From assembly GCF_029016285.1 (NCBI RefSeq), contig NZ_CP091976.1, forward strand, positions 1,364,001 to 1,428,000: DNA of 64,000 bases, written 5' to 3'. Shown piece after piece: positions 47,675 to 64,000 of the stretch; the stretch's first letter is position 1; each line of letters begins with the position of its first letter. Source of the DNA: Vibrio sp. DW001 (lineage in GTDB: Bacteria > Pseudomonadota > Gammaproteobacteria > Enterobacterales > Vibrionaceae). The translations under genes and the position numbers were made by a program. The notes below the pieces were generated by a model that searched no databases, was not told the DNA's origin, and was given only the letters and a program-made list of their open reading frames with translations.

Positions 47675-47851
47675 TACCAAGCTAGGTAAGTGTGAGATCA
47701 ACATGAATGTCATTCCGCTGACCACTTAAGACAGCATTGTAAACATAGCAATGGGCCTCCCTGCCCATTGATGTAGGCTCATAACGACCATGTTGCTGAC
47801 CCGTTGATTGTCCAGTTTGGTATCACGGTTACTGAGTTTTATGGTGTCCTA

Positions 47852-48445: not shown

Positions 48446-48601
48446 GGTATCCATATCCTTAAAGTGTCATTTTTTGTGGTGTAAACATAATTAGTGTATC
48501 TGATTGTTAGAATGCAATAAAAATGTCATTATTATGTCCAGTTGTTATGATAATTAGTCCGATTTTGCATATTTCATTTAAATGGATTCCAGAGGTTGTT
48601 T

Positions 48602-49357
48602 ATGGCAAAACTTGATCGTCTATCTGCGCTTATCGCTCGCTTTGAACTTAAAGCAGAAGTGGCTTGCGATTTGAACTGTGCCAACTTATTTTTACTGTCT
48701 GATGCGAAAAATGGTGAATTAAATCGAATTGTGTTTTGGCCAATAGCAAGAGATGACCTCGATGATATGCCTGTGGACGGTGAATTAATGGTTGCGGCAT
48801 CGATTGATTTAGGTGGGAAATCCAACCCGCTAGCGAGGGCGTTACCAAGTAGAGTAACGCTTTCAATTGATGAAGAGAGTAATTTGAAAGACCTCGCGCA
48901 GCTCATTATTGGCGAGATCCACGAACAGCGTTGTGGTCAAGCTACGACATTGCAAAAATTATTTGAGGTTATGGTTATCATTATGCTTAGAAAGGTAATG
49001 AGGCAGCATGCTGATAATCCGGGGCTGATAGCGGGTCTCGCAGACGAGCGTCTAAGCAAAGCCTTAGTGGCGATACATGAAAAGCCAGAGTTTGACTGGA
49101 GGGTAGAAGACCTTGCTGATACTGCAGGACTATCTCGTAGTCAATTTATGCAGCGCTTTAAAGCACGAGTAGGGCACACCCCCGCTCAATACCTGCGTGA
49201 TTGGCGACTTTCACTTGCAAGGCAAGACTTAGAGAAAGGAGACCGAGTAAAAGTGGTGGCTCAACGATATTGCTACGGTAGTCAAGAAGCGTTGAGCCGA
49301 GCATTCAATCAGCGTTATCAATGCAGCCCTGCTCAGGTTAGAAAAACACAGGCATAA
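48602..49357 (+). CDS. AraC-family regulator with cupin_6 sensor
   Basis: A 251-residue activator. The N-terminal cupin_6-type domain (residues 1-130) includes EIHEQRCGQATTLQKLFEVMVIIMLRKVM. The C-terminal AraC double HTH (about 155-250) reads WRVEDLADTAGLSRSQFMQRFKARVGHTPAQYLRDWRLSLAR and VAQRYCYGSQEALSRAFNQRYQCSPAQVR. The ATG at 48602 follows GAGG; an upstream TTG adds two residues. It is divergent from the HCCA-isomerase-like gene and convergent with an MFS exporter. Confidence 0.88.
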   Translation: MAKLDRLSALIARFELKAEVACDLNCANLFLLSDAKNGELNRIVFWPIARDDLDDMPVDGELMVAASIDLGGKSNPLARALPSRVTLSIDEESNLKDLAQLIIGEIHEQRCGQATTLQKLFEVMVIIMLRKVMRQHADNPGLIAGLADERLSKALVAIHEKPEFDWRVEDLADTAGLSRSQFMQRFKARVGHTPAQYLRDWRLSLARQDLEKGDRVKVVAQRYCYGSQEALSRAFNQRYQCSPAQVRKTQA

Positions 49358-49384
49358 TATCTCTACGAAGTGCTTAAGCTGCGC

Positions 49385-50563
49385 CTATTGATTGGAACGA
49401 ATCAAAGGATTTTCATGTTTAATAGAAGGCATAATTAGGTTTGCAGCGATCGTCACAAACATCAACATACCGGCAACAGGCCAAAGGCTACCGTCATAGA
49501 AAACGGTCGTTAGCCAGCCTGTGATGGACGAAATAAAGAACTGATTTGCACCAAATAAGGCGGAAGCAGATCCGGTATGTTCTTTAAAATGGCTGATATA
49601 TATGGCATTACAGTTAGGCATCGATGCACCCAACGAGCCAATCATGCAGATAACACTGATCGCTTGAATCTCTACAGGGGCATCGAGGTAAGTCAATAAA
49701 ACAAAGAAAGCTACAAATAAGAATTGGAAGCGCAATGCCCATTTCAATAGAAAGTTGGCCATATAGGTAGAGAGTAGATAATTGTTTACTCTATTGATGA
49801 CGGCCATTGCCACAACATTGGCAGCGAATACGAGGGCAAATACCTGATCGTCAAGACCGAAATATTGCTGATAAACAAAGGATGCGTTGGTGATAAATAT
49901 CATCATTACGCTCTGTGAAAAACCTTGTACACCGATATACCGAAGAGCGGGTTTGTTGCGTAAAACAAACCGGTATCTTTCTATTACTGACAATGTCTGG
50001 TGATGTTCAATTTTGTCATTTGGAAGTTTTAATACCGTGAGCAAGATAACCAACATACCGTAACCGAACAAGACATAAAAGATAACCTGCCAATCCGCTA
50101 CCAAAAGTATCAGTGCACCAATACTCGGCGCTAATGCTGGCGCACCAACCAAAATAAGTGTAACGAGCGCAAACATTTTGGCTGCTTGATTACCTGTCGC
50201 TCTCTCACGAATGAGTGCAGGTACGCAGACGACGGAAAATCCGCCACCTATCGCCTGGACCACTCTCATAATTTGTACCGTTAATAGGCTGTCTGCTTGG
50301 GCTATAATGAGTGTGGTTACGGAGTATATGGACAGCCCTAAAATTATCATGCGCTTTTTGCCAAAGCGATCAGCGAGCGGGCCACCAATTAACTGACCGA
50401 TCGCCATGCCAAAAATGTAGAAGCTGATTGTGGTGGCAATTTCGTCGGGTCCAACATTGAAAAACTCCGCCATATAAGGCATGGCAGGAAGGTAAGTATC
50501 TACCGCAAATGGGGATACTCCGATGATCATTGCCATTAATATGACAAACGTTTTTTGAGACAT
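49385..50563 (-). CDS. Bcr/CflA-type MFS exporter
   Basis: A 392-residue major-facilitator protein with 12 helices. Motif A is GQLIGGPLADRFGKKRMIILGL (about 60-80), the DHA1 helix-1 pattern is GVSPFAVDTYLPAMPYMAEFF, and the helix-4/5 region is QAIGGGFSVVCVPALIRERATGNQAAK. It is divergent from a MarR gene, and two MarR-type palindromes lie in the 150 bp between them, so it is probably repressed by MarR. A second Bcr/CflA gene at 27.7 kb is in a different control context. Confidence 0.9.
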   Translation of the reverse strand: MSQKTFVILMAMIIGVSPFAVDTYLPAMPYMAEFFNVGPDEIATTISFYIFGMAIGQLIGGPLADRFGKKRMIILGLSIYSVTTLIIAQADSLLTVQIMRVVQAIGGGFSVVCVPALIRERATGNQAAKMFALVTLILVGAPALAPSIGALILLVADWQVIFYVLFGYGMLVILLTVLKLPNDKIEHHQTLSVIERYRFVLRNKPALRYIGVQGFSQSVMMIFITNASFVYQQYFGLDDQVFALVFAANVVAMAVINRVNNYLLSTYMANFLLKWALRFQFLFVAFFVLLTYLDAPVEIQAISVICMIGSLGASMPNCNAIYISHFKEHTGSASALFGANQFFISSITGWLTTVFYDGSLWPVAGMLMFVTIAANLIMPSIKHENPLIRSNQ

Positions 50564-50636
50564 AACGGTTACTCTTAGTTTCTAGCCGGGTTTAATTACT
50601 ATCCGAACTTGCCCTATAACGATAAAGGGGGAGGGA

Positions 50637-50660
50637 TATTATCTTTCTGGAAAGATAATA
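50637..50660. promoter_or_regulatory. MarR operator 1
   Basis: TATTATCTTTC-TG-GAAAGATAATA, a perfect 11+2+11 palindrome between the divergent MFS and MarR genes, 77 bp before the MFS start. Confidence 0.82.
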
Positions 50661-50670
50661 ACTTGAATTA

Positions 50671-50686
50671 ATCTTTCTGGAAAGAT
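50671..50686. promoter_or_regulatory. MarR operator 2
   Basis: ATCTTTC-TG-GAAAGAT, a perfect 16-bp palindrome identical to the core of operator 1 and 30 bp from it centre to centre (about three turns). It lies 28 bp before the MarR start. Confidence 0.8.
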
Positions 50687-50714
50687 ATTATTTGGAAAAT
50701 TATTGAGGTCCATT

Positions 50715-51224
50715 ATGTCGAACAAACATTTAAACGTTGATGACTTCATCAGCCTGATGAAAGAGAACTGGCCAACCGCCTTTCAATCTCTTTATCCGCT
50801 TTTCCCAAGAATTCGTCGTATTGAGGAGCATATCAACGCTGACAAAGCGTCAATAATGGCGTGTTACGGCCTTTATAGTTCAGATTTTGATCTATTAACC
50901 GCACTGCGCAGAAGCAACAAGGCTGCTCCGTACGAACTCATGCCAACCGAGATATGTGAATACATGCTTTTTAGCTCCGGTGGATTGACCAAAGTGATGA
51001 ATAGGTTAGAAAAAAAGGCCTTTATTACCCGGGTAGAAAGCAACCATGATAAGCGAATTAAAATGGTGAGGTTAACCGTCGAAGGCGAGCAACTAATAGA
51101 AGAAGTGGTCGAGCAGTTCCAAGATCTACACACCACTTATTTAGATGGGTTTAAGCAAGAAGATGTTGAGCAACTTGATTTTCTGGTACGCAAGTTACTA
51201 AACAATATAGAATTAAAAAAATAG
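50715..51224 (+). CDS. MarR-family regulator
   Basis: A 169-residue regulator. Start at 50715 (MSNKHLNVDDF), with GAGG upstream; a TTG start at 50703 is less likely. A winged HTH spans about 55-120 (LMPTEICEYMLFSSGGLTKVMNRLEKKAFITRVESNHDKRIKMVRLTVEGEQLIEE). It is followed after 24 bp by D-serine dehydratase and faces an MFS exporter, with two palindromic operators between. It probably senses a small amphipathic or amino-acid-like ligand and represses both directions. Confidence 0.9.
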   Translation: MSNKHLNVDDFISLMKENWPTAFQSLYPLFPRIRRIEEHINADKASIMACYGLYSSDFDLLTALRRSNKAAPYELMPTEICEYMLFSSGGLTKVMNRLEKKAFITRVESNHDKRIKMVRLTVEGEQLIEEVVEQFQDLHTTYLDGFKQEDVEQLDFLVRKLLNNIELKK

Positions 51225-51248
51225 CGTTGTTTATTCAAAGGACAAGAC

Positions 51249-52580
51249 ATGGTTACGTATGACAAGCATTCTCTGGAGAGTCAATTCCCACTGTTAAAGC
51301 AATTGGTTGCATTGGAAGAGATCCATTGGTTCAACCCTAACAGTACCACTCTAGAAGTTGCGTTACCTTTTGTCGGTCTTGATGAAAAAGATATACGCGA
51401 TGCGAGCCAACGACTTAAAAGATTTGCACCGTATATTGCTGATGTTTTTCCGGAAACCGCTGCTTCTAGAGGGATAATAGAGTCGGAAGTGGTGGAAATA
51501 GCGCAAATGAAAGCGGAAATGGAGCGGCTATATACGACGCCAATTCTCGGCCGGTTGATGTTAAAAAAAGATAGCCACCTTCCTATATCTGGGTCAATAA
51601 AAGCGCGTGGTGGTATCTATGAGGTGTTAACTCACGCCGAAAAACTGGCTATTAACGCCGGGGTGCTTTCTGAAGAAGAGGACTACAGGAAACTGTCGAC
51701 TGAAGCGCTGAAAACCTTCTTTGGTCAATACAGTATTGCCGTTGGTTCTACTGGTAACCTTGGGTTGTCTATTGGAATTATCAGCGCAAAAATGGGCTTT
51801 TCTGTCTCAGTTCATATGTCCGCTGAAGCACGAGAATGGAAGAAACGTAAGCTCCGCTCCCATGGTGTCAATGTTGTGGAATACGAACAAGATTATGGTG
51901 TGGCAGTTGAGCAAGGTCGTAAAGAATCCGAAAAAGATCCGAACTGTTTTTTCATCGATGACGAGAACTCGCAGACACTCTTTCTTGGCTATTCCGTCGC
52001 TGGGGAACGAATAAAGGCGCAGTTTGACCAAATGGGTATCATCGTTGACGAAGATCATCCACTGTTTGTCTATTTGCCTTGTGGGGTCGGTGGTGGTCCT
52101 GGAGGCGTTGCTTTTGGACTAAAAATGGCCTTTGGTGATCACGTGCATTGTGTTTTTGCAGAACCGACACATTCTCCCTGTATGTTGCTTGGTGTTCACA
52201 CTGGGCTTCACGATAAAATATGTGTACAAGATATTGGCATCGATAATGTAACGGCGGCAGATGGATTGGCAGTGGGAAGGGCATCTGGGTTTGTTGGTCG
52301 AGCAATGGAACGATTGCTTGATGGTTACTACACTATTTCAGACCAGAGAATGTATCGTTTTCTAGGTCAACTCGACCAATGCGAAGGGATTCAACTCGAA
52401 CCTTCCGCATTGGCCGGAATGTTGGGTCCCATTATTGTTACGAACGCGAGTGAATACCAGAAACGCTTGGGCTTAGATGATCGGTTAATGGAAAATGCCA
52501 CACATCTTGTTTGGGCCACGGGAGGAGGAATGGTGCCGGAAAAAGAGATGGCATCTTATTTGGCCAAGGCAGTTGGTTAA
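51249..52580 (+). CDS. dsdA: D-serine dehydratase (D-serine ammonia-lyase)
   Basis: A 443-residue PLP enzyme that converts D-serine to pyruvate and ammonia. The PLP lysine lies in [17 protein letters not shown] (about residue 118), the phosphate-binding loop is [12 protein letters not shown] (about 170), and the glycine loop is [20 protein letters not shown] (about 277). C-terminal STGG-type motif [10 protein letters not shown]. Length fits DsdA. In enteric bacteria it pairs with DsdC (LysR) and DsdX; here it follows a MarR regulator in one transcript, an unusual pairing that might link D-serine to exporter control. Confidence 0.95.
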
Positions 52581-52747
52581 CGTCACTTACTTCCCAGATA
52601 ATTGAATTGGTTCATAATTAAGCGTTCTTAACACCTCCCTACTACATAATTTTTCTGACCGCATACCTCCAAATGGTAATAATACTCATTTTTGTTTGAT
52701 CTAGAACAAAGAGACTATACATTTACCTCTAAAGTGGTATATTAAAT

Positions 52748-52766
52748 GCGAATCAATCTCACTATC
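52748..52766 (-). promoter_or_regulatory. Candidate Fur box upstream of the iron/redox cluster
   Basis: Read on the minus strand, GATAGTGAGATTGATTCGC matches the 19-bp Fur consensus at 13 positions. It lies 57 bp before the start of the 673-residue gene. The match is moderate, so iron control is likely but not proven. Confidence 0.45.
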
Positions 52767-52822
52767 ATTTCGATCGTCAATTTGTTAATGAATAACTTAA
52801 CCAAGAAAAATAAGGATTTCTA

Positions 52823-54844
52823 GTGAAAAAGAGCATTTTAAGTTTAGCTGTATCTGCTGCCGTAGTTACGTCAGTTTCTTCTGCAGCGCCTCAAGTCACT
52901 ATATTAGATGTCACGCATCAACCCGCAGGGAGCTTTTTGGCTTATACCGAGTTCGAATTGTCAGGAGAGCCTTTAGCCGAATCTCTTGGTTTAGATTTAG
53001 ATGTTTTAGACCCGAATATTGTTGATGACCCAACCCCTTTTGACTTCGCCGCTGGTATTGAAAGTTATGAATACTCAGAAGAAGCGATGTATGCATTAAA
53101 TTATCAATCTCAAATGGGTCCTCATATTGTTAATGGTCCTCTAAACCGCAGTCGTGGCGGAAAGATGGAGAACTTGGGTAAGCGCGTGATTGAAATGGCC
53201 AATGCAGTTGGCTTCCCAGTGAATGAAGTTCCGCAAAATATGTACCCAATTTCTATCCCTTATATTTCTGGTAGCCCAGAATTTACACAGGCTCCAGACA
53301 CAACAACCGTCAACGGTGATGAAGTCGAAATTACCACTGCAAAAGGAGCGAGCAAAAAGGTTCAGGTTGTTGTACCTGCCTATTTCCGTGACTACAAATC
53401 TTTGGCTTGGGATCCAAGTTCATTTGATAAAACATTGAACCCAGCGGCAACGGGCGGCATCTTCCTTAAAGAAGTGATGTGGTCTCAAGATTTCCTTGGT
53501 GGTATGCATGTAACTGAAACCGACGAAGAAGTAGAAGCTGATTCTGCCGTGATGGATCAAGATGGCGTTCATAGCTTGGGCGTTTCAGCGGCCGATGGCT
53601 TTAATGGCATGATGTTGACTGAAATGTCTATCGATAAACTTCAAATCATGCAAGCACAATTAGGGTTCGACGGTAAGAATTTAGGTGCTAAATTTGGTCC
53701 AGATTACGACCCTAAAAATGGCCCCGTTTGGTTTGCTAATAAGGTTGCTGTGAATGAAGGTACCGAGAATCAAGTCAAATCCATTACATCGCTTAAGGTA
53801 AGTGACGGCTCATCTCAGTTACGTGACACATGGTTAATGTTGTGGCCAACGGCGGAGTTTTTCGCTTATACGGATCAGCGCACAGCGAACACAGCACAGA
53901 ATCCAGCATTTAATGCCGTATTTGACGGTGCACCTTTCGCCGCAGCACCAAAAGAAAATACAGATACCGACACGAGTAATGATGTTGTCGGTACAGATGC
54001 ATTCTCACTTGCGAATAATATCTCGAATTTGTTGTTTAAAAACATTGCTGCGCTTCATTTTAATGAAGATAAAGGCACGTTCGTAACCGAATTCAACAAC
54101 GGTAAAATGGGCAACAAGGTTGATCTTTACGATGCGGCTTACTCAATGGTTGCACTTTCGGTTTACCAGCGTGCGAAGGATGCGTTACCTGTCGGTTATG
54201 CGACAGCAGAGTCAGGTGACCTGAACCTTAAATCTGAACAAGGTAAAAAAGCGCTAGAAATGATTCAAGCGCAAGCCGATTTCATTCTAATGAACTTGGT
54301 TGGTAAAAATGGATTGGTACACGACGGTTTAACGTTAGACAAAGAGATGAGCGTAGATAGCAAGCAATCGTTGGATTCTCAATTTGCAGCAATTCGTGGC
54401 TTAGTTGCCGCATTCCTTGCGACAGAAAATGACAAATATAAGCAAGCGGCTCGCTCAATTTATCTCGCAGTTGAAAAGAACATGTTTGATGAAAAAATCA
54501 ATACGTGGGCGACGATTCCGGGCACAGAGACTATCCATACGCCATACACTGCGGCTGCAATTTCTGCCGGTCTGCGTGAGGCGATTCTTCACCTTAAAAA
54601 TGAAGAAGGTGAATCTGAACCTGCGCTTGAGTTATCAGCATTAACCAATCGTTATGTTAGTTGGTTTAAAGGCGTCATTAATGGCGGGATGCAATTGGCC
54701 GAATGGATGGGTGATTCTGGAGAAAACCAACTTAAAGGCAATAACTCAACCGATACTGATGAAGATGGTGTTCAACAGATTATTGCTGCTGGTGGTAAAT
54801 TTGGTACGGCAATGACAATGGCAAACAAGGCCAGTGTTAAGTAA
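52823..54844 (+). CDS. Unrecognised 673-residue exported protein of the FTR1 cluster
   Basis: GTG start with AAGGA at good spacing. A Sec signal peptide ends near VSSA-AP (residue 22), so it is periplasmic or secreted. No cysteine-haem motif or known domain is obvious. The C-terminal third (about 420-640) is helical, with repeated tyrosine/alanine helices (DAAYSMVALSVYQRA, SQFAAIRGLVAAFLA, AARSIYLAVEKNMF, PYTAAAISAGLREAI), reminiscent of an alpha/alpha toroid. The N-terminal part is acidic. A hairpin follows the gene, so it may be made in excess over the downstream genes. Position at the head of an FTR1/haem cluster suggests an iron-binding or substrate-handling role. Confidence 0.75.
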   Translation: MKKSILSLAVSAAVVTSVSSAAPQVTILDVTHQPAGSFLAYTEFELSGEPLAESLGLDLDVLDPNIVDDPTPFDFAAGIESYEYSEEAMYALNYQSQMGPHIVNGPLNRSRGGKMENLGKRVIEMANAVGFPVNEVPQNMYPISIPYISGSPEFTQAPDTTTVNGDEVEITTAKGASKKVQVVVPAYFRDYKSLAWDPSSFDKTLNPAATGGIFLKEVMWSQDFLGGMHVTETDEEVEADSAVMDQDGVHSLGVSAADGFNGMMLTEMSIDKLQIMQAQLGFDGKNLGAKFGPDYDPKNGPVWFANKVAVNEGTENQVKSITSLKVSDGSSQLRDTWLMLWPTAEFFAYTDQRTANTAQNPAFNAVFDGAPFAAAPKENTDTDTSNDVVGTDAFSLANNISNLLFKNIAALHFNEDKGTFVTEFNNGKMGNKVDLYDAAYSMVALSVYQRAKDALPVGYATAESGDLNLKSEQGKKALEMIQAQADFILMNLVGKNGLVHDGLTLDKEMSVDSKQSLDSQFAAIRGLVAAFLATENDKYKQAARSIYLAVEKNMFDEKINTWATIPGTETIHTPYTAAAISAGLREAILHLKNEEGESEPALELSALTNRYVSWFKGVINGGMQLAEWMGDSGENQLKGNNSTDTDEDGVQQIIAAGGKFGTAMTMANKASVK

Positions 54845-54869
54845 AAGCTAACCTAGTTTATTCGATTTA

Positions 54870-54892
54870 AGCAGCGATATTTTGTCGCTGCT
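54870..54892 (+). terminator. Attenuator-like hairpin after the 673-residue gene
   Basis: AGCAGCGA (54870-54877) pairs perfectly with TCGCTGCT (54885-54892) around a 7-nt loop, followed by TTTTG. The T run is short, so partial read-through into the next genes is expected. Confidence 0.6.
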
Positions 54893-54986
54893 TTTGTCGT
54901 TTCAAAAATCGATTCGGTGGTATTAAATATGAGCGCATTTAATCCAAATGACTATGTAATAAAACTGACTGTATATAGGTAGAAAA

Positions 54987-55466
54987 ATGTCGAGTCATCT
55001 GATTGCAGAAAAAGGTTCAGACAAAGGGATGTTTAGCCGCTGGTGGTTCTATCTTGCGTATCATCATAAATGGGCAGAAGGGATGCTCTACCTTATGTTT
55101 ATTTCTGGCCTTTTGTTATGGGATAGATTGGATGTAGGTTGGCAAGTAGAACGCATTACATTACTTCTCCATATGTTGGTTGGGCTCACCCTTTTTGTTG
55201 TTATCATGGCGCCATTTTGGCTTGCTCACCGCAGGTTAATTAGTGGCAGTAAGAAAGCATTTCTTCGTAAAACAGGGTCGATAATTGAATGGCTCTTAGT
55301 GATCTGCACATCAACAGGATTTTATCTTTTTTTCTTCGGTATACCGGGTAACACAATTGGTAATTTAATGGCCGACGTTCACTTTTATTCGTCATGGTTA
55401 CTTGCTCCGTTGGTGTTTAGGCACGCGATGCGCTGGAGCGTATTAAAAATTATAAAAAATAAATAA
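54987..55466 (+). CDS. Four-helix b-type-cytochrome-like membrane protein
   Basis: A 159-residue inner-membrane protein with four predicted helices (about 30-48, 55-80, 93-118, 125-148). Histidines sit where a di-haem b cytochrome would need them: HHKW at 26-27 in front of helix 1, LLLHM in helix 2, and DVHFYSSW plus FRHAMRW around helix 4. This is the cytochrome b561/DUF4405-like pattern, but I see no exact family motif. It lies between the 673-residue gene and the FTR1 permease, and could link the quinone pool to periplasmic haem proteins of the cluster. Confidence 0.65.
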   Translation: MSSHLIAEKGSDKGMFSRWWFYLAYHHKWAEGMLYLMFISGLLLWDRLDVGWQVERITLLLHMLVGLTLFVVIMAPFWLAHRRLISGSKKAFLRKTGSIIEWLLVICTSTGFYLFFFGIPGNTIGNLMADVHFYSSWLLAPLVFRHAMRWSVLKIIKNK

Positions 55467-55571
55467 CACCAACGATTAAGGGCTGTGGGCGTAAATTTAT
55501 GTTGACCCACTAACCATACGATTGGGATTAGAACAGAAACAGTACGTTTCATTGAAAGACACTGAGGATTT

Positions 55572-56390
55572 ATGTTTGCAAGTTTTCTTATCACTCTAAG
55601 AGAAGGGTTAGAAGCCTTTTTATTAGTCGGTATCGCGCTTTCCTATCTAGGGAAGCTTAATGCTCGTCACTTAAATAAATATATCTATATAGGTGTGTTT
55701 GTCGGTCTCGTTATGTCCCTAGCGATTGCGTTTGTTTTTCAAGTGGTCGTGGACCAGTTTAGCAACGAACGTTACCAAAACTACCTAATGGCGGGGATAT
55801 TGCTGTTTGCCACGGTCGTACTGACTTATATGGCTATCTGGATGCAGAATCAGGCCAAAAATCAGGTGGCACAGATGCAAGAAAACATCAGCAGTATGGT
55901 GACAACAGGTAACCTGATTGGGTTGGTATCTCTGGCTATGCTTGCCATTCTTCGTGAAGGGTTTGAAACCATTCTGTTTTTCTCTGCATTGATGTATTCC
56001 AGCCTTGGAGAGCTAAGCGCAGAGGACGCGGTTTTGGGTGGCCTTTTGGGCTTATTTGTGGCGTATGGTTTGGTCTGGTTCATGATGAAAAGCACCAAGC
56101 GAGTACCATTGGCTCTTTTTTTCAAATGGACGAGTTTACTCATTATTATTATTGCGGCTGGTTTGCTTTCTTCTGCAATCAATATGTTGCAGGCGGGTCA
56201 TCTTATCCCTATATACTATCCGCAGGTTTTTGATATATCGCATATTCTGGATGACCGAGATGTGTTTGGTACCTTTTTGAGAGCGTTATTTGGTTACAAC
56301 TCTTCACCTGGTTTATTGCCGCTCACCGTATGGTCAATGTATATGTTGATTTTCGTTCGTTTTTGGCAGCAAGGATACAAAAAAGCATGA
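55572..56390 (+). CDS. FTR1-family iron permease
   Basis: A 272-residue permease with seven helices and the two iron-binding REXXE motifs that define the family: REGLE at residues 10-14 and REGFE at 128-132. Bacterial relatives (EfeU, FtrC) import iron with help of a partner that oxidises Fe(II); no copper oxidase, P19 or EfeO/B gene is here. Instead haem and flavin proteins surround it. The gene overlaps the next by 4 bp (ATGA), so the tight part of the operon begins here. Confidence 0.92.
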   Translation: MFASFLITLREGLEAFLLVGIALSYLGKLNARHLNKYIYIGVFVGLVMSLAIAFVFQVVVDQFSNERYQNYLMAGILLFATVVLTYMAIWMQNQAKNQVAQMQENISSMVTTGNLIGLVSLAMLAILREGFETILFFSALMYSSLGELSAEDAVLGGLLGLFVAYGLVWFMMKSTKRVPLALFFKWTSLLIIIIAAGLLSSAINMLQAGHLIPIYYPQVFDISHILDDRDVFGTFLRALFGYNSSPGLLPLTVWSMYMLIFVRFWQQGYKKA

Positions 56391-57808
56391 ATGACAGTAA
56401 GAAAAAATCTGCGGTAGTTTTGGGGGCTGGGCCTGCTGGTTTAATGGCGGCTTGGGAGCTCGTGGACGCGGGTTTTGATGTCACTATTATCGAAAAAGAG
56501 AATTTTGCTGGCGGTATGTGTGCCACCCAAAAATTCACCGGTAAGCATGGTGACTATCGTTTCGATTTTGGTGGTCATCGTTTTATTACTAAGAACCCTA
56601 AGTTGCTCTCATTTGTAGACCAACTTATGGGAGAAGAGTTGCTGTATGCGCAAAGAAACAGCGTTATTCGGTATCGAGGGAGAATTTATCAATACCCTCT
56701 TGTACTGAGCGACCTAATAAAAAATGCACCGTTGTCGCTATTAATCGGCGGTGGCTTTGACCTCGTGAAACAACTCTTTAAGCCCAAGCCACAAACACGG
56801 TCAAAGGTCAGTTTTGCGCAGTGGATCGAGAGCCGGTTTGGTAAAACACTCTATAAACATTTTTTTGAAGGTTATACCGCGAAACTGTGGGGAATCGATC
56901 CCAAAAATCTATCAGGAGATTGGGCCTCACAGCGCATCAGTCTTATTGATTTGAAAGATATCGCTCGTCGTATGTTACCGGGCAAGCGTTCAAATGTGCG
57001 TACTTATGCTCGTCAATATCGATACCCTAAATGGGGGTTTGGTCAGCTATATAGCCAGTTAGGAACGGAGCTAGAAAATCGTGGTGTGAAGATAATCTTT
57101 AATGCTGAAGTCACGGGCTTAGTGCTGTCTGAGAAGAATCAGATTGAAGCGGTGAAGTTTGTGACCAATGATGAAGAAGAGTCCATCGGCTCAGACAACA
57201 TCATTGCCACCTTGCCACTCCCGATAATGACAAAGCTGACAGGCTTTGATAGCGGTTTAAGTTTTCGTTCGTTGCGTTTTATGAATATGCCAATGGAGAC
57301 AGACAATATCTCCGATAATACGTGGCAATACCTTTCAGACCCGGAAATTATTGGTACTCGACTTCAGGAGCCGAAACGCCGTTCAGCGTATATGGCTCCC
57401 GAAGGAAGAACCTCGGTCATGGTTGAGATTCCATGTAATAAAGATGATGAGGTGTGGTCAATGGAAGGAGAAAAGCTTCGCGATAAGGTTTTGCATGATC
57501 TTCAAACCCTTAAGGTTGACCCTAGTTTGGCGACTGGCGAGTTCTTTACCTCATACAGCGAACACGCCTATCCGCTTATGGATATGGGGTATCAAGAGAA
57601 GCGTGAAGCCGCGATAACCCACCTTTCCCAGTTTGAAAATCTGATCATGACGGGCCGACAAGGCACGTTTAGATACATATTTACTGATACGGCGATGGAG
57701 ATGGGTCTGATGGCCGCGCAATCCATCATCGATGGTGTAGATCGTCGTCGTGAGATCTTTGATTATCGAAATGAAAATATAGTAATAGAGGTTCAGAGTG
57801 TGGCTTAA
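56387..57808 (+). CDS. FAD-dependent oxidoreductase (UGM/protoporphyrinogen-oxidase-like)
   Basis: A 473-residue flavoprotein, start at 56387 (MNDSKKKSAVVLGAGPAGLMAAWELVDAGF), coupled by an ATGA overlap to FTR1. The Rossmann GxGxxG is at residues 12-20, the FAD-linked acid in ENFAGGMC near 39, GGHRF near 65, and the C-terminal FAD motif ends in MTGRQGTFRYIFTDTAMEMGLMAAQSI. YTAKLWGIDPKNLSGDWASQRI is typical of a UDP-galactopyranose-mutase-related amine-oxidase branch. It may act on a sugar nucleotide or a cofactor. Its place between an iron permease and a glycosyltransferase gene is unusual. Confidence 0.85.
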   Translation: MNDSKKKSAVVLGAGPAGLMAAWELVDAGFDVTIIEKENFAGGMCATQKFTGKHGDYRFDFGGHRFITKNPKLLSFVDQLMGEELLYAQRNSVIRYRGRIYQYPLVLSDLIKNAPLSLLIGGGFDLVKQLFKPKPQTRSKVSFAQWIESRFGKTLYKHFFEGYTAKLWGIDPKNLSGDWASQRISLIDLKDIARRMLPGKRSNVRTYARQYRYPKWGFGQLYSQLGTELENRGVKIIFNAEVTGLVLSEKNQIEAVKFVTNDEEESIGSDNIIATLPLPIMTKLTGFDSGLSFRSLRFMNMPMETDNISDNTWQYLSDPEIIGTRLQEPKRRSAYMAPEGRTSVMVEIPCNKDDEVWSMEGEKLRDKVLHDLQTLKVDPSLATGEFFTSYSEHAYPLMDMGYQEKREAAITHLSQFENLIMTGRQGTFRYIFTDTAMEMGLMAAQSIIDGVDRRREIFDYRNENIVIEVQSVA

Positions 57809-57863
57809 CGAGTCGTTATCTCGCTTGAAACACGTTGAACCATTGGATTAAGGAAGTAGTTAG

Positions 57864-58457
57864 ATGATGTTTACCCATGGCTGTAAGGAAACTTTGTTTT
57901 CTTTTGTTTTTTTTGTCGCGATGTCCTTACCTTCGGTTTCGTTTGCGTATTCTTATGCAGCAGCAGGTAAAGAACCCCTGATAGATAGCAGAGAAGTGAT
58001 ATTGCAAGCGTTGCAAGCCAATGATTATTCAACGGTTGAAAACGCGGTTTTGGGACTAAAAGAAGAGTTTGATTATCTGTTGAGTGATCACAATGTGGAC
58101 CTTATTACACCAATAAACGCAGCAATAGAGAATGAAGATGGGGTAAAAATTGAAGCGGTAATTGATCATGCCGTCGTCGAGGAGATTGTCCGCCGTTTAG
58201 AGGGGGCACAAAACAACCTGACAGATTATCAAGTCGCCAAGGTACTCGTGGTAAAAAGTAAATTATTTCTCGATCTTATTATGCCAAAACTGACAAGCGC
58301 TCAGCGGGATCAGGCCAACCAAGCGATACAAGGGGTTTTGGAATCAATTGGTAACCCGGGCGTGTTTGGGGTGGGTCAAGCACCTGCGAATCAAGAGCAG
58401 TTTAGAGCAGAGCAGGCTAAATTACTCAGCGCGATTCAGGGAGTCAGACAACACTGA
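57864..58457 (+). CDS. Small exported helical protein of the FTR1 cluster
   Basis: A 197-residue protein with GGAAG before the ATG and a signal peptide ending SFA-YS. The mature part is mostly helical, Glu/Gln/Ala/Leu-rich, with no Cys, haem or known motif. Two helix clusters are visible (about 40-75 and 100-165), and a low-complexity tail (GNPGVFGVGQAPANQEQF) follows. Its stop overlaps the next ATG (TGATG). It may be a periplasmic partner of FTR1, taking the place of imelysin-like EfeO, but this is only inference. Confidence 0.7.
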   Translation: MMFTHGCKETLFSFVFFVAMSLPSVSFAYSYAAAGKEPLIDSREVILQALQANDYSTVENAVLGLKEEFDYLLSDHNVDLITPINAAIENEDGVKIEAVIDHAVVEEIVRRLEGAQNNLTDYQVAKVLVVKSKLFLDLIMPKLTSAQRDQANQAIQGVLESIGNPGVFGVGQAPANQEQFRAEQAKLLSAIQGVRQH

Positions 58458-59839
58458 TGCTGGAACGTCTAGGTCGTGCAATGAGCATACAGTTTATCCT
58501 CATCTATGTTGTTTGGGTGATGTGGTTGTTCGCCTACCCATTTCAATTGAATAGTGATGATGCCCTCAATTTTTATCGGGCGATTGAGCGATTTTCAGTG
58601 CTAGAGTTTCGTCCGCATTTTCCCGGGTATCCGACCTTTGTTGGTACCAGTTGGTTGGCCTCGATTCTTGGCCCAGAAGTCGTAGCGGCAAATGTAGTGG
58701 TCTCGTTTGTGTCAGTAATCTTGCTCCCTCTTCTCGTCTTTGTGCTTGTGAAGCAGCTTAGCCAATCATTTTTTTCGGCGGCTCTAGCGGGGATGTTGGT
58801 GATGACACAATCGATAATGGGGGCACTCGCACTCAATGGACTCTCGGATTCTTTAGCCTTGGTGTGCCTATTGTTCGCTCTACTGATGGCGTTTGATAAA
58901 CGTTATATTTTCACGGGTGTTTGGATAGGTTTGATGTTGTCTACGAGGCCCTCTTATTTTCCTTTGGCGTTGGTCTTTCTGATGGTTCCTATGGCAACCG
59001 AAGCAAAAGGGTTAAGAGTATCGGTATACCTAAAAGCGGGCGTTAGTGTGGCGGTGATAGGAGCATTAAGTCTGTTATTTATTTGGATCAAAGACGGTGC
59101 CGCGTACATAGAAGAAGGTATTCGTTTTACAACGGGGCATTTCACTATCTGGGGTAATACCGCTTCAACGCAAGACGCCAGCATTATTCAGTGGGTAGAT
59201 GTGCTCGTTAATGAATACTCTGCATTGAGCCTAATACTGATACTTTGTTCTCTTCTATATGGACTCTCAAGTTTTTACAGGTTCTCTGGCATGACTACGA
59301 GTGACAAACTTGATGGCAAGGACCAATGCTGGCAAGGCATTATAGCGAGCATAGGTCTGGTCTATTTGGTTTGGATGCTATTGGCCCAAAACCCAGAAAA
59401 CCTACGACATTGGGCTCCTGTCGTCCTACTTTTTTGTGTTGTGTTATCGCTTCAACTAAATGAGTTGTTGAATACAAAAAGAAATACAGCCCTAGTCGCG
59501 TCTGCATTCCTGTTATGTGGATTTGCCATCATAGGTTGGCAGAGCATCAATTTAAGACCTGACGTCGCCCCCGTACAGCAAGCTATACGGTGGATAAATA
59601 AACACCCTGATAATCAGTTTGTAGGCTCCAACTATGGCGTCAATCTGCTAAAAGATCGGCTGACAGATAGTGTGGTGTTCGACATGTATTACCCAAGCAG
59701 CGCAATAGCACTCAATAAAGAAAGCGATCGAGCATGGCGACTTTCCAATACAGAGTTAAAAGACAATGAATTAATCACGCAGTTTCCAGCAAGGTTTAGT
59801 GGCGAGCGGCGTCTATATCTATACAAAATGAGTCAGTGA
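58457..59839 (+). CDS. GT-C-type membrane glycosyltransferase (ArnT/PMT-like)
   Basis: A 460-residue polytopic protein with about ten helices. The first periplasmic loop has the acidic motif QLNSDDALNFYRAIERF (about 32-48) and HFPGYPTF, as in lipid-linked GT-C enzymes (GT39/GT83 families). The C-terminal 90 residues are periplasmic. Such enzymes transfer a sugar from polyprenyl-phosphate to protein or lipid A. Coupled to the previous gene by a TGATG overlap and followed 33 bp later by the hexaheme gene, it might glycosylate one of the exported proteins of the cluster. Confidence 0.82.
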   Translation: MLERLGRAMSIQFILIYVVWVMWLFAYPFQLNSDDALNFYRAIERFSVLEFRPHFPGYPTFVGTSWLASILGPEVVAANVVVSFVSVILLPLLVFVLVKQLSQSFFSAALAGMLVMTQSIMGALALNGLSDSLALVCLLFALLMAFDKRYIFTGVWIGLMLSTRPSYFPLALVFLMVPMATEAKGLRVSVYLKAGVSVAVIGALSLLFIWIKDGAAYIEEGIRFTTGHFTIWGNTASTQDASIIQWVDVLVNEYSALSLILILCSLLYGLSSFYRFSGMTTSDKLDGKDQCWQGIIASIGLVYLVWMLLAQNPENLRHWAPVVLLFCVVLSLQLNELLNTKRNTALVASAFLLCGFAIIGWQSINLRPDVAPVQQAIRWINKHPDNQFVGSNYGVNLLKDRLTDSVVFDMYYPSSAIALNKESDRAWRLSNTELKDNELITQFPARFSGERRLYLYKMSQ

Positions 59840-59872
59840 ATAAACTGGCCTAAACGATGAGCAAAGTAAAAA

Positions 59873-62791
59873 ATGCTAAGTAGCAAATACAAATTTTTGA
59901 AAGGGTTGGCTTTTCTGTTAATAGCCTTGGTTTCACATAACGCGATAGCAGGCGATAAGAGCCGCTCTCTGCGTTTTAGTCAAGACAAGTCACGTATCTA
60001 CAGTGCGAACTTTGACGCGGGTAGTGTCAGTATTCTTTCCCGTGAAGATGGCCTGATAGTAAAGGAGAAAACAATAGGGCGAGATATTCGTCGTATTGCC
60101 TTTAGTGATGACCAAACGTTGCTCTTGGCGACGGATTATCTACAAGACAAAGTGGTGATGTTGGACGCCAACTCGCTTGACGTCATATCGGAAACGCCCG
60201 TTCCTGCACGCCCTTTTGGCGTGGTATTCAGTCCTGAAAATCAGCTCTTTTACGTCACTAGTTTTGAGAAAGACAAATTACTACTCATCGATCGCTCTGG
60301 TGCATTGATTGAAACGGTAACGACCCAACCGTCGCCACGAGGATTGGCGTTGACTGATGATAACCGCTTATTGGTAACTCATGCCTTAACGGGACAGGTA
60401 TCGATCTATGACGTGTCTGTGAAGAAACCTGCGTTGTTGAAGGTGATTCAACTCGCCGATAGCGAAGAAAATAAAAGCAGAACCGTTTCACAGGGTAAAC
60501 CACGGAAACTAGATAATATTGTCATCTCCCCAGATGGTAGCACGGCGTGGCTTCCTCATGTGCTCTGGTCTTTTGGTCATGATTTTCAGTTTCAATCAAC
60601 GGTATTCCCTGCTATCTCTATCCTAGATCTGGAGGTTGGTAATGAACATGAGATAGAACAAGAGCGAAAGCAACTGTTTAAGCAAATCAATATCATAGAG
60701 AGTGGAAATCGTACCAGAATTGTTTCCAATCCTCACGATGGTGAGTTTAGTGAGGACGGTAAGAAGGTTATCTTTACGTTGGCAGGTTCGGAAGACCTTT
60801 TGGTTTTCGACCTATCCAGACAAGGAAAGAAAAACAAAAACCGCCACCGTCGTAAGAAATTTCAAGGCGGGGTTAAAGCCACCCAGATATATCGCGGTGT
60901 ACCGGGTGATAATCCTAAAGGATTGTTGATCAGCGGTAGAGAGCTGTATGTGCAAAATGCGATGTCATTGAATATTGCCAAATTTGATACTGGCGAATCG
61001 GGCCCTTTTGCTAAAGTAAAACTCACCGAAGGCAATTTTGCCTCTTTGGTATTATTCGATCCATTGCCAAGTCAGCTTCGTCTAGGAAAAACGTTATTCA
61101 ATAGCGCTAACACCGCGGATTATGCCGAATTTCCTATGGCGGGCGATTTTTGGATGAGCTGTAACTCTTGCCATATCGACGGATTTAATTTTACAAACCG
61201 TCAATTGATGGAAGATGGCAGAAAAAATCGATTTGAGAACGCATTGACGGGGCATGTTGATGTAAGAAAAATGATTGCAGGCGACCCTGTTGGTGCGTAT
61301 GTCGATATCATTCAAAAAACTCAGGGCGGCATGGGGGGCGATTCACGGGAAGGAGCGTCAGCATTGGTTGACGTTGAAAATCCGCCAGTAGAAGTGGCGA
61401 AAATGATGATCGCGTTGAATGAGTACGTACGTGTTCAGGAGAATCTGCCTTATCTTTCTACGTGGTTGCGATTGGATGACAAAAAACGCTATACCCATCC
61501 GGATGAATGGATCAATTCGGCTGAATGTGCGGACTGCCATACCACGATCTACGATCAATGGGCAGATTCGAATCACGGTATGAATATGGATCACCCTTAC
61601 TATCGTCAACACGAAGATCTGGCCGCAAAAGTTGAAGGCGAAGAATTTAGAGTGTTATGTCGAGGCTGTCATACGCCGCAGATGGTGATTAATGGTGACA
61701 ATAAACCGTTGAAAGAATTTGGCAATATGTACGAAAAAGGAGGCGAATCTCTGGTTGAGGCGTTTGCTCATGGTCGATCGGTGAACGAAAGAGGAACAGG
61801 GTGTGTGTTCTGTCATCGTATTTCCAAGGCCGAAAATGCCGGTGGCAATACCGACATGACAGTCAATCTTAAAGACAGAGAAGCGTATGTTTTTGAGGAT
61901 GCGAATACCAGTCTACTTAAATGGTTATCGGAAAAACAAATAAATGCCGCACCAGAAAAACACAAAGTGTCTTACTCGAACCCAGAGCTGTACCAAAGTT
62001 CACTCTATTGTGCGACATGCCATAACGAGTTCACGACCGGACAAGGGGCAATCATTAATGACAACTTTGGTGAGTGGTTAGCATCACCGTTTAATTCGCC
62101 TGAAGATCCGTCTAAACACAAAACTTGCATCGACTGTCATATGACGCAGGATGTCACGGACTTCGATAATCGCGTTGCAGGCCAATCGACAGACGACGGT
62201 CCTATTAAGCAGAACATGCGTTCCCATCATTTTGTCGGCGGTAACTACTACTTTACGGGAATGAGAAACCCAGAACATAAGAAACTGAGTATCGATATTC
62301 TTAAAACGGCACTTACGTTGCGGGTGGAAAAAACAGGCAATCAATTGGCGGCAATTATCACCAATGTTAACTCGGGACACGATATGCCTGGTGGCGCACG
62401 TAGACAGGTTTGGTTAGAAGTGATTGCGACAGACGCGAATGGAAAAAAGGTACTTGAAAGCGGAGTGATGAAGGACGGATACATTCCTAAAGATGCACGC
62501 AAATTTGTTAAGGTTGGGGTGGATAAAGAAGGTAAACCAGTAGGACAGCTTTTCTGGCGATACGTGAAGATCGGAAAAGATACCCGTATCAAATCAGGTC
62601 AAACTCGTCGCGAAGTATTTGAATTGCCGTCAGAGGTGGAATATCCCCTTACCGTGTCAACGCGTGTACTTTATCAGGTGTTTGCTAAGGCGCTAACGGA
62701 AAAAGTGAAGAAGGCGTTTCCTGAAGAGAATATCCCAGACCCTGAAGTGATTGAATTGGAAAAAACAGTGTCGGTATATGAGGCGCGATAA
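59873..62791 (+). CDS. Beta-propeller hexaheme cytochrome c
   Basis: A 972-residue exported cytochrome, signal peptide ending AIA-GD. Residues 30-400 form a YVTN-type beta-propeller (IYSANFDAGSVSILSREDG, ARPFGVVFSP, NPKGLLISGRELYV). Six CxxCH haem sites follow near residues 430 (CNSCH), 552 (CADCH), 596 (CRGCH), 644 (CVFCH), 713 (CATCH) and 752 (CIDCH). The first belongs to a cytochrome-c-peroxidase-like segment, the other five to a cytochrome c554-like module (YDQWADSNHGM). The end (790-972) is a beta domain. It is probably a periplasmic electron carrier or reductase. Confidence 0.92.
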   Translation: MLSSKYKFLKGLAFLLIALVSHNAIAGDKSRSLRFSQDKSRIYSANFDAGSVSILSREDGLIVKEKTIGRDIRRIAFSDDQTLLLATDYLQDKVVMLDANSLDVISETPVPARPFGVVFSPENQLFYVTSFEKDKLLLIDRSGALIETVTTQPSPRGLALTDDNRLLVTHALTGQVSIYDVSVKKPALLKVIQLADSEENKSRTVSQGKPRKLDNIVISPDGSTAWLPHVLWSFGHDFQFQSTVFPAISILDLEVGNEHEIEQERKQLFKQINIIESGNRTRIVSNPHDGEFSEDGKKVIFTLAGSEDLLVFDLSRQGKKNKNRHRRKKFQGGVKATQIYRGVPGDNPKGLLISGRELYVQNAMSLNIAKFDTGESGPFAKVKLTEGNFASLVLFDPLPSQLRLGKTLFNSANTADYAEFPMAGDFWMSCNSCHIDGFNFTNRQLMEDGRKNRFENALTGHVDVRKMIAGDPVGAYVDIIQKTQGGMGGDSREGASALVDVENPPVEVAKMMIALNEYVRVQENLPYLSTWLRLDDKKRYTHPDEWINSAECADCHTTIYDQWADSNHGMNMDHPYYRQHEDLAAKVEGEEFRVLCRGCHTPQMVINGDNKPLKEFGNMYEKGGESLVEAFAHGRSVNERGTGCVFCHRISKAENAGGNTDMTVNLKDREAYVFEDANTSLLKWLSEKQINAAPEKHKVSYSNPELYQSSLYCATCHNEFTTGQGAIINDNFGEWLASPFNSPEDPSKHKTCIDCHMTQDVTDFDNRVAGQSTDDGPIKQNMRSHHFVGGNYYFTGMRNPEHKKLSIDILKTALTLRVEKTGNQLAAIITNVNSGHDMPGGARRQVWLEVIATDANGKKVLESGVMKDGYIPKDARKFVKVGVDKEGKPVGQLFWRYVKIGKDTRIKSGQTRREVFELPSEVEYPLTVSTRVLYQVFAKALTEKVKKAFPEENIPDPEVIELEKTVSVYEAR

Positions 62792-62820
62792 ATGAACATT
62801 AATGCAGTCATGTCAACGGT

Positions 62821-63735
62821 ATGGGAAATTGGATTGTGAACGCGAAGATACCCTATACCAGAATAGAAAAATTGCTCGACTATATACATGACAATATTCA
62901 GGAGCCACTAAGCCTAGACGAGTTAGCCGCGAAAAGCTGCTGGTCTAGGTGGCAATTGCAGAGAGTTTTTCAAGCTTATACCGGTTTCAATGTAGCGCAA
63001 TATGTTCGGGAAATTAAGCTCAGTCAAGCGGCATTAATGGTGCTTGAAGGAAAGCACCGCATATTAGATGTGGCGTATGAATTTGGGTTTAATTCCGAAA
63101 TAGCCTTTAGCCGTGCCTTCAAGCAGTTCTTTGGTGTGTCACCTAAACGCTATCAATCGAATGGATTAAAGACGGGAATTAAAACGCCTTTGACCAAGGC
63201 GATTAAGAGTAGTGAATCTGTGTTTTATCCAGAAAATACGCTCTATCAAGTTCGCCTGGAACACAAGAATGCCTTCTCTATCAATGGTGTGCCGTCGATA
63301 ATTAGAGGGCTTCAATCGCCAGAACCTGATTTTTCTAGCACGGTTCCTTATGCGTGGGAGGCATTCTTTAAGCAAACCGATCTCAGTAACGTGGTTAACG
63401 TACCCCATATCGGCATCATTGATATGTCGCCTAGTCAGGTAGATGGAGAACTTATCTATTGGGCTGGTGTCGAGCAAACAATCGTTGGCAAGCCTTCAAA
63501 CGGTGGGTTAATTTGCAAGAAGCTAGAAATTGGAGAATGCAGCTATGCGGTATTGCCGTATAGGGGAGATGTCGACGAGTTCCATAAAGCGGTGACTTGG
63601 TTGGTCGCAATGTGGCTTCCAGAGTCAGGATATAAAACGGTAGACAACGCATTTGAAATGGAGATTTATCACCCGCCTTTCGAAAATGCTCAACGAACGA
63701 TACTCGCGGAGTATTGGTTGCCTATACATCAATAA
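62821..63735 (+). CDS. AraC-family regulator with GyrI-like domain (Rob-like)
   Basis: A 304-residue regulator with the Rob layout. The AraC double HTH is at about 10-115 (LSLDELAAKSCWSRWQLQRVFQAYTGFNVAQYVREIKLSQAA and RILDVAYEFGFNSEIAFSRAFKQFFGVSPKRYQ). A GyrI/SoxR-like effector domain spans about 150-300 (FYPENTLYQVRLEHKNAFSINGVPSIIRG, LEIGECSYAVLPYRGDVDEFHKAVTWLVAMWLPESGY). It lies 29 bp behind the hexaheme gene, so it is transcribed with the cluster and may control it in response to a small ligand. Confidence 0.88.
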   Translation: MGNWIVNAKIPYTRIEKLLDYIHDNIQEPLSLDELAAKSCWSRWQLQRVFQAYTGFNVAQYVREIKLSQAALMVLEGKHRILDVAYEFGFNSEIAFSRAFKQFFGVSPKRYQSNGLKTGIKTPLTKAIKSSESVFYPENTLYQVRLEHKNAFSINGVPSIIRGLQSPEPDFSSTVPYAWEAFFKQTDLSNVVNVPHIGIIDMSPSQVDGELIYWAGVEQTIVGKPSNGGLICKKLEIGECSYAVLPYRGDVDEFHKAVTWLVAMWLPESGYKTVDNAFEMEIYHPPFENAQRTILAEYWLPIHQ

Positions 63736-63820
63736 ACTTTGCCTACCTACATTATAAATATCGTTGCTAGTTGCACCAAATTGTTAACTTTTTTGTATCG
63801 ATTTCATCTATTATCTGCAT

Positions 63821-63839
63821 GATAATGATTCTCATTAAT
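63821..63839 (+). promoter_or_regulatory. Strong Fur box
   Basis: GATAATGATTCTCATTAAT matches the 19-bp Fur consensus at 15 positions, with the first nine unbroken. It lies 53 bp before the last gene start of the window, indicating iron repression of that gene. Confidence 0.82.
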
Positions 63840-63891
63840 GTTAAAGAGGGTCAGTATATATGTTAATACCGTTCTTATTATGCAGGTTACT

Positions 63892-64000
63892 ATGAATAAA
63901 AATCACAATAATGCTGAGTTCAAACTCAGTGCGATCACAACTGCGATAGCGCTCTCTTTTAGTTTCTCTTTCTCTGCTAGCGCATTTGCAGATTCGACAG
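63892..64000 (+). CDS. Start of an exported, Fur-controlled protein (cut by window edge)
   Basis: 36 codons from ATG at 63892 are visible. The predicted protein begins MNKNHNNAEFKLSAITTAIA and continues through a Ser/Phe-rich hydrophobic stretch to SASAFA-DS, a Sec signal peptide of the long kind often seen in TonB-dependent receptors. With a strong Fur box 53 bp upstream, a siderophore or haem receptor is the likeliest product, but no receptor domain is yet in view. Confidence 0.6.
   Translation, partial: MNKNHNNAEFKLSAITTAIALSFSFSFSASAFADST

Follow-up and report, generated by a model that had tools for sequence, protein, structure and literature searches.

A conserved seven-gene module that joins an FTR1-family iron permease to two cytochromes was found in Vibrio sp. 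DW001, within a 64,000-nucleotide stretch of contig NZ_CP091976.1 (positions 1,364,001 to 1,428,000), which is referred to here as the window and which lies on contig 2 of a two-contig, 5.46-Mb genome. The module appears to be an FTR1 system distinct from EfeUOB, FtrABCD and FTR1/P19, and it contains two unnamed families, represented by a 673-residue protein (g673) and a 197-residue protein (g197). Its core consists of g673, a putative b-type membrane cytochrome and cyt6, an exported propeller cytochrome that carries six haem sites. We suggest, with a probability of about 0.42, that the module serves periplasmic iron redox chemistry and iron uptake at low oxygen and low iron, in which Fe(II) oxidation to quinone would be coupled to import by FTR1, with g673 as the carrier. 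The seven genes, with positions in the window, are as follows.

52823..54844, + strand: g673, exported acidic protein of 673 residues with a GTG start; predicted (alpha/alpha)6 barrel, no named family
54987..55466, + strand: putative b-cytochrome, predicted four-helix membrane protein of 159 residues with invariant H62, H81, H132 and H146
55572..56390, + strand: FTR1-family iron permease with both REXXE motifs
56387..57808, + strand: flavin adenine dinucleotide (FAD) oxidoreductase, UDP-galactopyranose-mutase (UGM)-like (NF005547, 608 bits, cut-off 380); alternative start at 56330
57864..58457, + strand: g197, exported all-helical protein of 197 residues with YSYAAAGKEP after the signal and the motif PGxFGxG
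58457..59839, + strand: GT-C glycosyltransferase-like multi-pass membrane protein of 460 residues (weak evidence)
59873..62791, + strand: cyt6, exported protein with a beta-propeller and a six-haem c-type cytochrome part, six CxxCH

The initial annotation had described an eight-gene, one-direction cluster with tight spacing from FTR1 onward, and both features were recovered. All 8 listed open reading frames (ORFs) were called on the + strand, and the gaps from FTR1 onward were −4 (with the flavoprotein start at 56387), +55, −1, +33 and +29 bp; the two upstream gaps, on either side of the b-cytochrome gene, were 142 and 105 bp. The cluster start reported earlier, 52748, is upstream of the GTG start of g673 at 52823. 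The longest ORF of the flavoprotein begins at 56330, and the start at 56387, which creates the 4-bp overlap with FTR1 and a protein of 473 residues as in the same-genus relative G022, appears more likely. This relative matched window positions 47347-64000 at 92%, with identical gene order. Four of the proteins (g673, g197, b-cytochrome and the GT-C protein) stayed below cut-off against all Pfam and NCBIfam models.

In a first sample of 61 genomes, g673 occurred in 3, namely the window's own, G022 (same genus, 98%) and G037 (same order, 69%). Across genomes of 84,980 species, 159 relatives of g673 were found and the best 80 loci were kept, of which 59 had full flanks (≥7 kb of sequence ahead of the g673 match and ≥8.5 kb behind it). 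A neighbourhood search for co-occurrence with FTR1, which had been proposed as a check, found the complete seven-gene set in 28 of the 59 full-flank loci, and co-location therefore exceeds chance. The remaining loci held g673, b-cytochrome and cyt6 alone (6), these three with the FAD, g197 and GT-C genes and no FTR1 (4), these three with a GT-C match (1), g673 with FAD, g197 and GT-C (1), or g673 by itself (19, of which 17 were from Aeromonas). Complete loci included Vibrio, Photobacterium, Aliivibrio, Ferrimonas, Moritella and Endozoicomonas, and were also present in Alphaproteobacteria (Pseudovibrio and others) and Campylobacterota (Arcobacter and Sulfurimonas). Three gene orders were seen: g673-b-FTR1-FAD-g197-GTC-cyt6 (b, b-cytochrome; GTC, GT-C), g673-b-cyt6-FTR1-FAD-g197-GTC and FTR1-FAD-g197-GTC-g673-b-cyt6. 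Thus, the cluster is a real, conserved module. Cluster membership as first listed stood for seven of the eight genes and not for a Rob-like AraC regulator, which is described further below.

Association of these genes was also seen where they are unlinked. We searched 394 genomes of the window's order with four profiles (g673, cyt6, cluster-type FTR1 and g197). Full-length g673 (>1100 bits) and full-length cyt6 occurred in the same 32 genomes, Aeromonas included; among these, cyt6 was in two pieces in G324 and G431, and four genomes had one stop codon in the match. The cyt6 profile matched 87 genomes, the other 55 over the propeller or the haem part alone (≤206 bits). Of the 32 core genomes, 31 had cluster-type FTR1 (>433 bits, with the next match at 185), and exactly these 31 also had g197; G324 had neither. 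In the G324 assembly, cyt6 is represented by two separate ORFs (L106:4935-7804). Some FTR1 match was found in 149 of the 394 genomes, and the cluster type was restricted to genomes with the core. Two weak extra matches, one to g673 (20 bits) and one to g197 (E 9e-4), were left uncounted. As the 32 core genomes come from 5 genera in 5 families, the number of independent events is much smaller than 32, and the Fisher test for co-occurrence (p 8e-48) takes no account of this relatedness.

Besides, 12 genomes whose g673 locus lacked cyt6 were searched, and full-length cyt6 was found in all of them (nine Aeromonas and the genomes of L027, L030 and L082), two of the matches having one in-frame stop. 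Aeromonas-type genomes with g673 or cyt6 always had both. In three fetched genomes of this type, b-cytochrome, cyt6, FTR1, FAD, g197 and GT-C formed one run with g673 apart, the L082 genome was split in the same way, and in the complete genome G189 g673 and cyt6 were ~111 kb apart. Neighbourhoods that separate FTR1 from the cytochrome and orphan genes had been named in the initial annotation as a sign against the grouping. Such a split does occur in Aeromonas, but g673 is the gene set apart, and FTR1 stays beside cyt6. In the L027 genome, the cyt6 found was that of a second, complete cluster (L015). This organism, Oceanospirillales bacterium XeTr1, has two copies of g673, one in the full seven-gene cluster (L015) and one alone (L027).

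The six CxxCH motifs first noted in the propeller cytochrome were invariant in 38 of 38 aligned cyt6 sequences, together with further histidines H170, H229, H461, H568, H697, H785 and H836. cyt6 starts with an N-terminal hydrophobic segment and, being exported and carrying several CxxCH, has the features of a multihaem c-type cytochrome. Its C-terminal part gave a sequence-profile match to 5ze8 (pentahaem cytochrome c552), which we take to be the protein of Thermochromatium tepidum, and its N-terminal part to seven-bladed propellers (1l0q, YncE). Unlike these proteins, cyt6 combines a propeller and six haem sites in one chain, to which a b-type membrane domain is added in several groups. For example, b-cytochrome was fused to the front of cyt6 in loci of Alphaproteobacteria and Campylobacterota (complete ORFs of 1120-1290 residues), and a fused start was also present in Saccharospirillum (L070). 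Four histidines of b-cytochrome were invariant in 26 of 26 sequences, from which we infer a b561-like dihaem cytochrome. No b561 Pfam match was found among its members, and 3 of 26 weakly matched DUF4405. Hydrophobic segments flagged by one script numbered five in the fusion L051, two in the window b-cytochrome and three in L069.

The permease passed Pfam PF03239 with 133.5 bits (cut-off 25.3). Both REXXE motifs that had been noticed were verified, as R10E11..E14 and R128E129..E132 were invariant in 22 of 22 aligned FTR1 sequences. The protein was below the cut-off of the EfeU equivalog NF041756 (197 bits, cut-off 255).

Fold prediction for g673 gave an (alpha/alpha)6 barrel, as in the N-acylglucosamine 2-epimerase superfamily. 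However, g673 differs from that superfamily and related barrels in identity (9%) and length (673 versus ~400 residues), and a sequence-family match to the superfamily above cut-off is lacking. Any single Pfam family matched no more than 5 of 55 g673 members, with a best E of 0.0033 in one member, and the best PDB profile match had an E of 0.78. Assignment of g673 to DUF4856, a label carried by two listed relatives, was rejected, as those relatives and the window protein match no Pfam family; the term occurs in no paper of open-licence PubMed Central (PMC) text. Among ~8000 scored candidates, g673 had 450 matching database clusters. The gene is followed, in the gap before b-cytochrome, by the feature below.

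54869..54893, + strand: hairpin with a T-containing tail

Hairpins with a folding energy of −8 kcal/mol or lower followed g673 in 62 of the 74 loci scored, all of them g673 loci and with every Aeromonas locus counted.

The second family, g197, had 405 matching database clusters among ~8000 scored candidates. With Foldseek, EfeM and EfeO were its third and fourth matches, at E of 0.45 and 0.57, which are not significant. The idea that g197 is a helical periplasmic domain detached from other types of FTR1 protein found no support at profile level: hhalign probability was 3.9% for the short type (17 of the 20 loci L118-L137; 3 without a usable reading were dropped) and 1.9% for the long type (L110, L112, L117 and L138), with 95.5% between both FTR1 sets as the positive control. 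The FAD, g197 and GT-C genes stay together without FTR1 in L028, L029, L030, L031 and L070. This persistence, and the occurrence of the g673 barrel fold among sugar enzymes, might point to a surface-glycan or protein-glycosylation module made of the barrel protein, the UGM-like flavoprotein and GT-C, co-regulated with iron genes by chance. Such a module leaves the haem proteins and FTR1 unexplained, and the core three occurred without the whole FAD-g197-GT-C block in 6 of the 59 full-flank loci; we consider it very improbable. In the iron-uptake reading, the three proteins would be accessory and might act as a block that glycosylates one of the exported subunits.

Regulatory patterns were scored in the 280 bp upstream of g673, with consensus patterns for Fur, FNR, CRP, NarP, ArcA, OxyR and Zur. 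The 74 upstream regions were reduced to 50 (Aeromonas from 17 to 1, near-identical regions removed), and controls were dinucleotide shuffles and 186 intergenic regions preceding other genes of the same loci without Aeromonas, of which 132 were AT-rich (AT 0.650 versus 0.640 in the test set). An earlier control of 292 intergenic regions that included Aeromonas gave the same outcome with lower p. By the Fisher test, Fur-like 15-mers with ≤2 mismatches were enriched, with 23/50 regions, a shuffle mean of 0.43, and controls of 13/186 (p 9e-10) and 12/132 (p 1e-7); Fur-like 19-mers with ≤4 mismatches were found in 16/50 (shuffle mean 0.18; controls 10/186, p 2e-6, and 9/132, p 4e-5). Similarly, perfect FNR sites occurred in 7/50 (shuffle mean 0.08; controls 0/186, p 1e-5, and 0/132, p 9e-5), and FNR sites with ≤1 mismatch in 18/50 (shuffle mean 1.90; controls 18/186, p 2e-5, and 17/132, p 0.001). 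CRP sites were slightly enriched (12/50 versus 6.37 at 2 mismatches), and ArcA and OxyR sites were not enriched in the 50 regions. Iron and low-oxygen control of the module is suggested by these Fur-like and FNR-like sites across relatives. In the window the following sites precede g673.

52675..52693, + strand: weak Fur-like site GGTAATAATACTCATTTTT, 5/19 mismatches to the consensus
52696..52709, + strand: FNR-like site TTGATCTAGAACAA, which differs from the consensus TTGATNNNNATCAA by 1 mismatch
52716..52743, + strand: promoter-like hexamers TATACA-16-TATATT, from a consensus scan
52724..52739, + strand: NarP/NarL-like 7-2-7 site TACCTCTAAAGTGGTA, perfect match
52744..52760, + strand: degenerate Fur-like block AAATGCGAATCAATCTC, aligning with Fur-like blocks of Photobacterium and L005; weak alone

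The NarP-like match is the single perfect one in the 64-kb window and is also perfect in Vibrio sp. 99-8-1 (L005), which suggests nitrate control. Over all loci, perfect NarP sites were not significant (2/50 versus 1/186, p 0.11). The window site, shared by both Vibrio upstream regions compared, overlaps the promoter-like sequence; promoter-like sites upstream of g673 in the window showed no excess over shuffles.

Outside Proteobacteria, a g673 relative came from a plasmid of Anoxybacillus amylolyticus (Bacillota), with 43% identity over 652 residues (6e-180). Directly after it is a gene for a 651-residue propeller cytochrome with two CxxCH and, by eye, a lipobox-like start, in which a MauG/RoxA-like end replaces the hexahaem part. 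All Fur-like palindromes of this 21.5-kb stretch, three in number and with 2, 3 and 3 mismatches at 14 fixed positions, were in the four-gene g673/cytochrome run; the neighbouring CobW and ZnuA genes had Zur sites with 0 and 1 mismatches. This partition therefore supports the pattern method, and iron rather than zinc. ZnuA and CobW genes of the Zur type lie next to the pair itself (L140:7777-11875). Judging from this one Bacillota example, a propeller cytochrome together with g673 may be the oldest unit.

Mobile spread of the module was considered and rejected: among 72,556 plasmid records, cyt6 relatives were on 2 and g673 relatives on 5, and one of the matches was a 4.9-Mb A. caviae record filed as a plasmid. 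On a 241-kb Aeromonas hydrophila plasmid (L142, 11935-13935), g673 lies between insertion sequences, and its neighbours are glgC and EAL-domain genes, as on Aeromonas chromosomes.

In the mechanism that we propose, g673, which is perhaps abundant, would bind iron or an iron complex and hand the iron over, cyt6 would dock on the putative dihaem b-cytochrome so that electrons could be exchanged between g673-held iron and the quinone pool, and FTR1 would carry iron across the inner membrane. cyt6 and b-cytochrome are taken as the redox partner since they are the sole redox candidates in the cluster for FTR1. The more likely direction would be oxidation of Fe(II) and import of Fe(III) by FTR1; this is favored because control by Fur and FNR would fit iron scavenging at low oxygen, where partners that depend on O2 or peroxide fail. 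A bolder version, which we put forward tentatively, is that the module is the first quinone-linked, oxygen-independent iron permease, in which a hexahaem propeller cytochrome on a dihaem b-cytochrome would take electrons from Fe(II) on the barrel carrier and drive FTR1 import where both oxygen and iron are scarce, with the barrel/cytochrome pair as the oldest part, common to Pseudomonadota and Campylobacterota and present on at least one plasmid of Bacillota.

Several observations weigh against this iron-uptake reading. The core (g673, b-cytochrome and cyt6) was kept without FTR1 in 11 of the 59 full-flank loci. In 18 genomes without FTR1 at the g673 locus, which cover all of these 11 loci and include several drafts, the cluster type was found nowhere in 16; 2 had it elsewhere (both beside cyt6), 3 had distant matches and 13 had none. 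FTR1 is thus optional to the core, and since it is missing from 11 of 59 loci and 16 of 18 genomes, the core must do something without it. A FeoB match was present in 6 of the 11 core-without-FTR1 genomes (drafts among them), so another Fe(II) importer is no general answer. Among the objections to an exclusive link of the core with FTR1, these genomes weigh most. In addition, Fur-like sites (here a 19-mer with ≤5 or a 15-mer with ≤2 mismatches, close relatives kept) were rarer without FTR1 (7/17 loci versus 21/29 with FTR1), the best sites of the window were weak (5-6/19 mismatches), and those that precede g673 and the b-cytochrome operon in Aeromonas were also weak (5-7 mismatches). The nearest folds to g673 are sugar epimerases and glycoside hydrolases, and FNR and NarP sites also suit plain anaerobic respiration.

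The last point leads to a different function, an anaerobic respiratory branch in which b-cytochrome and cyt6 would pass quinol electrons to a periplasmic acceptor, with g673 as an enzyme or substrate carrier and FTR1 and the accessory block serving supply or assembly. Consistent with it are the FNR-like sites with ≤1 mismatch (18/50), the perfect NarP-like site in both Vibrio regions, the predicted barrel of g673, which is common to many enzymes, and the occurrence of the g673/cytochrome pair without FTR1. Yet Fur-like sites were found in 23 of 50 regions and also in the Bacillota member, and in the order sample the cluster-type FTR1 was confined to core genomes, so that we judge a respiratory branch quite unlikely.

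Electrons might also flow in the opposite direction, from quinol via b-cytochrome and cyt6 to ferric iron or chelates held by g673, and Fe(II) would then enter by FTR1, Feo or another importer. The invariant haem motifs are accompanied by enough other invariant histidines to resemble bis-His low-potential multihaem reductases (both ligation and potential would follow from this likeness), and the flow fits the genomes with core and no FTR1, six of which had a FeoB match. In Campylobacter jejuni, too, the FTR1/P19 system has been proposed to include a reduction step, with thioredoxins (PMC6083913; here and below, statements on cited papers refer to excerpts of them). Against reduction, the FTR1 partner in FtrABCD has been proposed as a ferrous oxidase (PMC11966278), Fe(III) reduction is less needed under anoxia, where FNR acts, and FeoB was not found in 5 of the 11 genomes. 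We regard this flow as unlikely, though a serious competitor to Fe(II) oxidation coupled to FTR1 import. The Aeromonas split and the fusions elsewhere are clean genetic handles.

The eighth gene counted in the initial annotation adjoins the cluster and is outside the module.

62821..63735, + strand: Rob-like AraC regulator

An AraC match was present in only 1 of the 59 full-flank loci (L055), far from the cluster. In the closest relative, the AraC gene is between the cluster and a TonB-receptor gene, the gene after AraC in G022 being a TonB-dependent receptor. A strong Fur-like site (3/19 mismatches) is located directly after the AraC gene of the window, at 63821-63839. AraC and the TonB-dependent receptor may be an iron unit of their own.

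No paper describing this gene set was found in open-licence PMC text, and defence-system families gave no match for the 4 cluster proteins scanned. Aliivibrio salmonicida is not among the best 80 g673 loci. Two of its genes, VSAL_I1785 and VSAL_I1786, presumably encode a dihaem c-type protein and an imelysin, respectively. In a fur mutant of this species these genes were up 5.7x and 8.2x, the latter with a predicted Fur box (PMC5511505). The pair is similar to the cluster in that a Fur-affected exported protein is combined with a redox protein; in contrast, no FTR1 is annotated there in the excerpt, and the likeness is by description alone (PMC5511505). The Ftr1 of PMC9012536 is a methanogenesis enzyme, and a cytochrome c/FTR1 permease of another type is listed in PMC9230427.

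The observation that EfeO (M75), DyP-type EfeB, P19, cupredoxin and copper oxidase partners are absent was borne out by a Pfam scan of the 8 cluster proteins. EfeUOB/EfeM resemble the cluster in that an FTR1-family permease is accompanied by exported proteins and by a haem protein in the redox role (PMC9174327). However, none of the 8 proteins matched M75 or DyP, the permease falls below the EfeU cut-off, and the redox partner, unlike that of EfeUOB, would be a multihaem c-cytochrome with a membrane b-cytochrome. In Brucella and Bordetella, the operon of the FtrABCD system likewise encodes a periplasmic redox protein next to an FTR1 permease; its copper protein FtrB is the proposed ferrous oxidase, and Fe(II) oxidation has been proposed to drive import (PMC11966278), but no P19-like FtrA or cupredoxin FtrB match was found among the 8 proteins (Pfam, E up to 1). 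Campylobacter jejuni 1649-1656 and Yersinia FetMP also combine an FTR1 permease with several partners, and the FTR1/P19 system has an iron-restriction phenotype and a Fur box (PMC6083913). These partners are P19, ABC-type and thioredoxin proteins, none of which was matched among the 8 cluster proteins, which have cytochromes instead. In FTR1 systems as described in PMC9174327 and PMC11966278, the redox partner is a copper protein or a haem peroxidase; in the module, quinone would stand in for O2 or peroxide, and cyt6 with b-cytochrome for the copper protein or haem peroxidase. If true, this cytochrome-and-quinone version would explain how FTR1 could work without oxygen and would provide functions for the g673 and g197 families.

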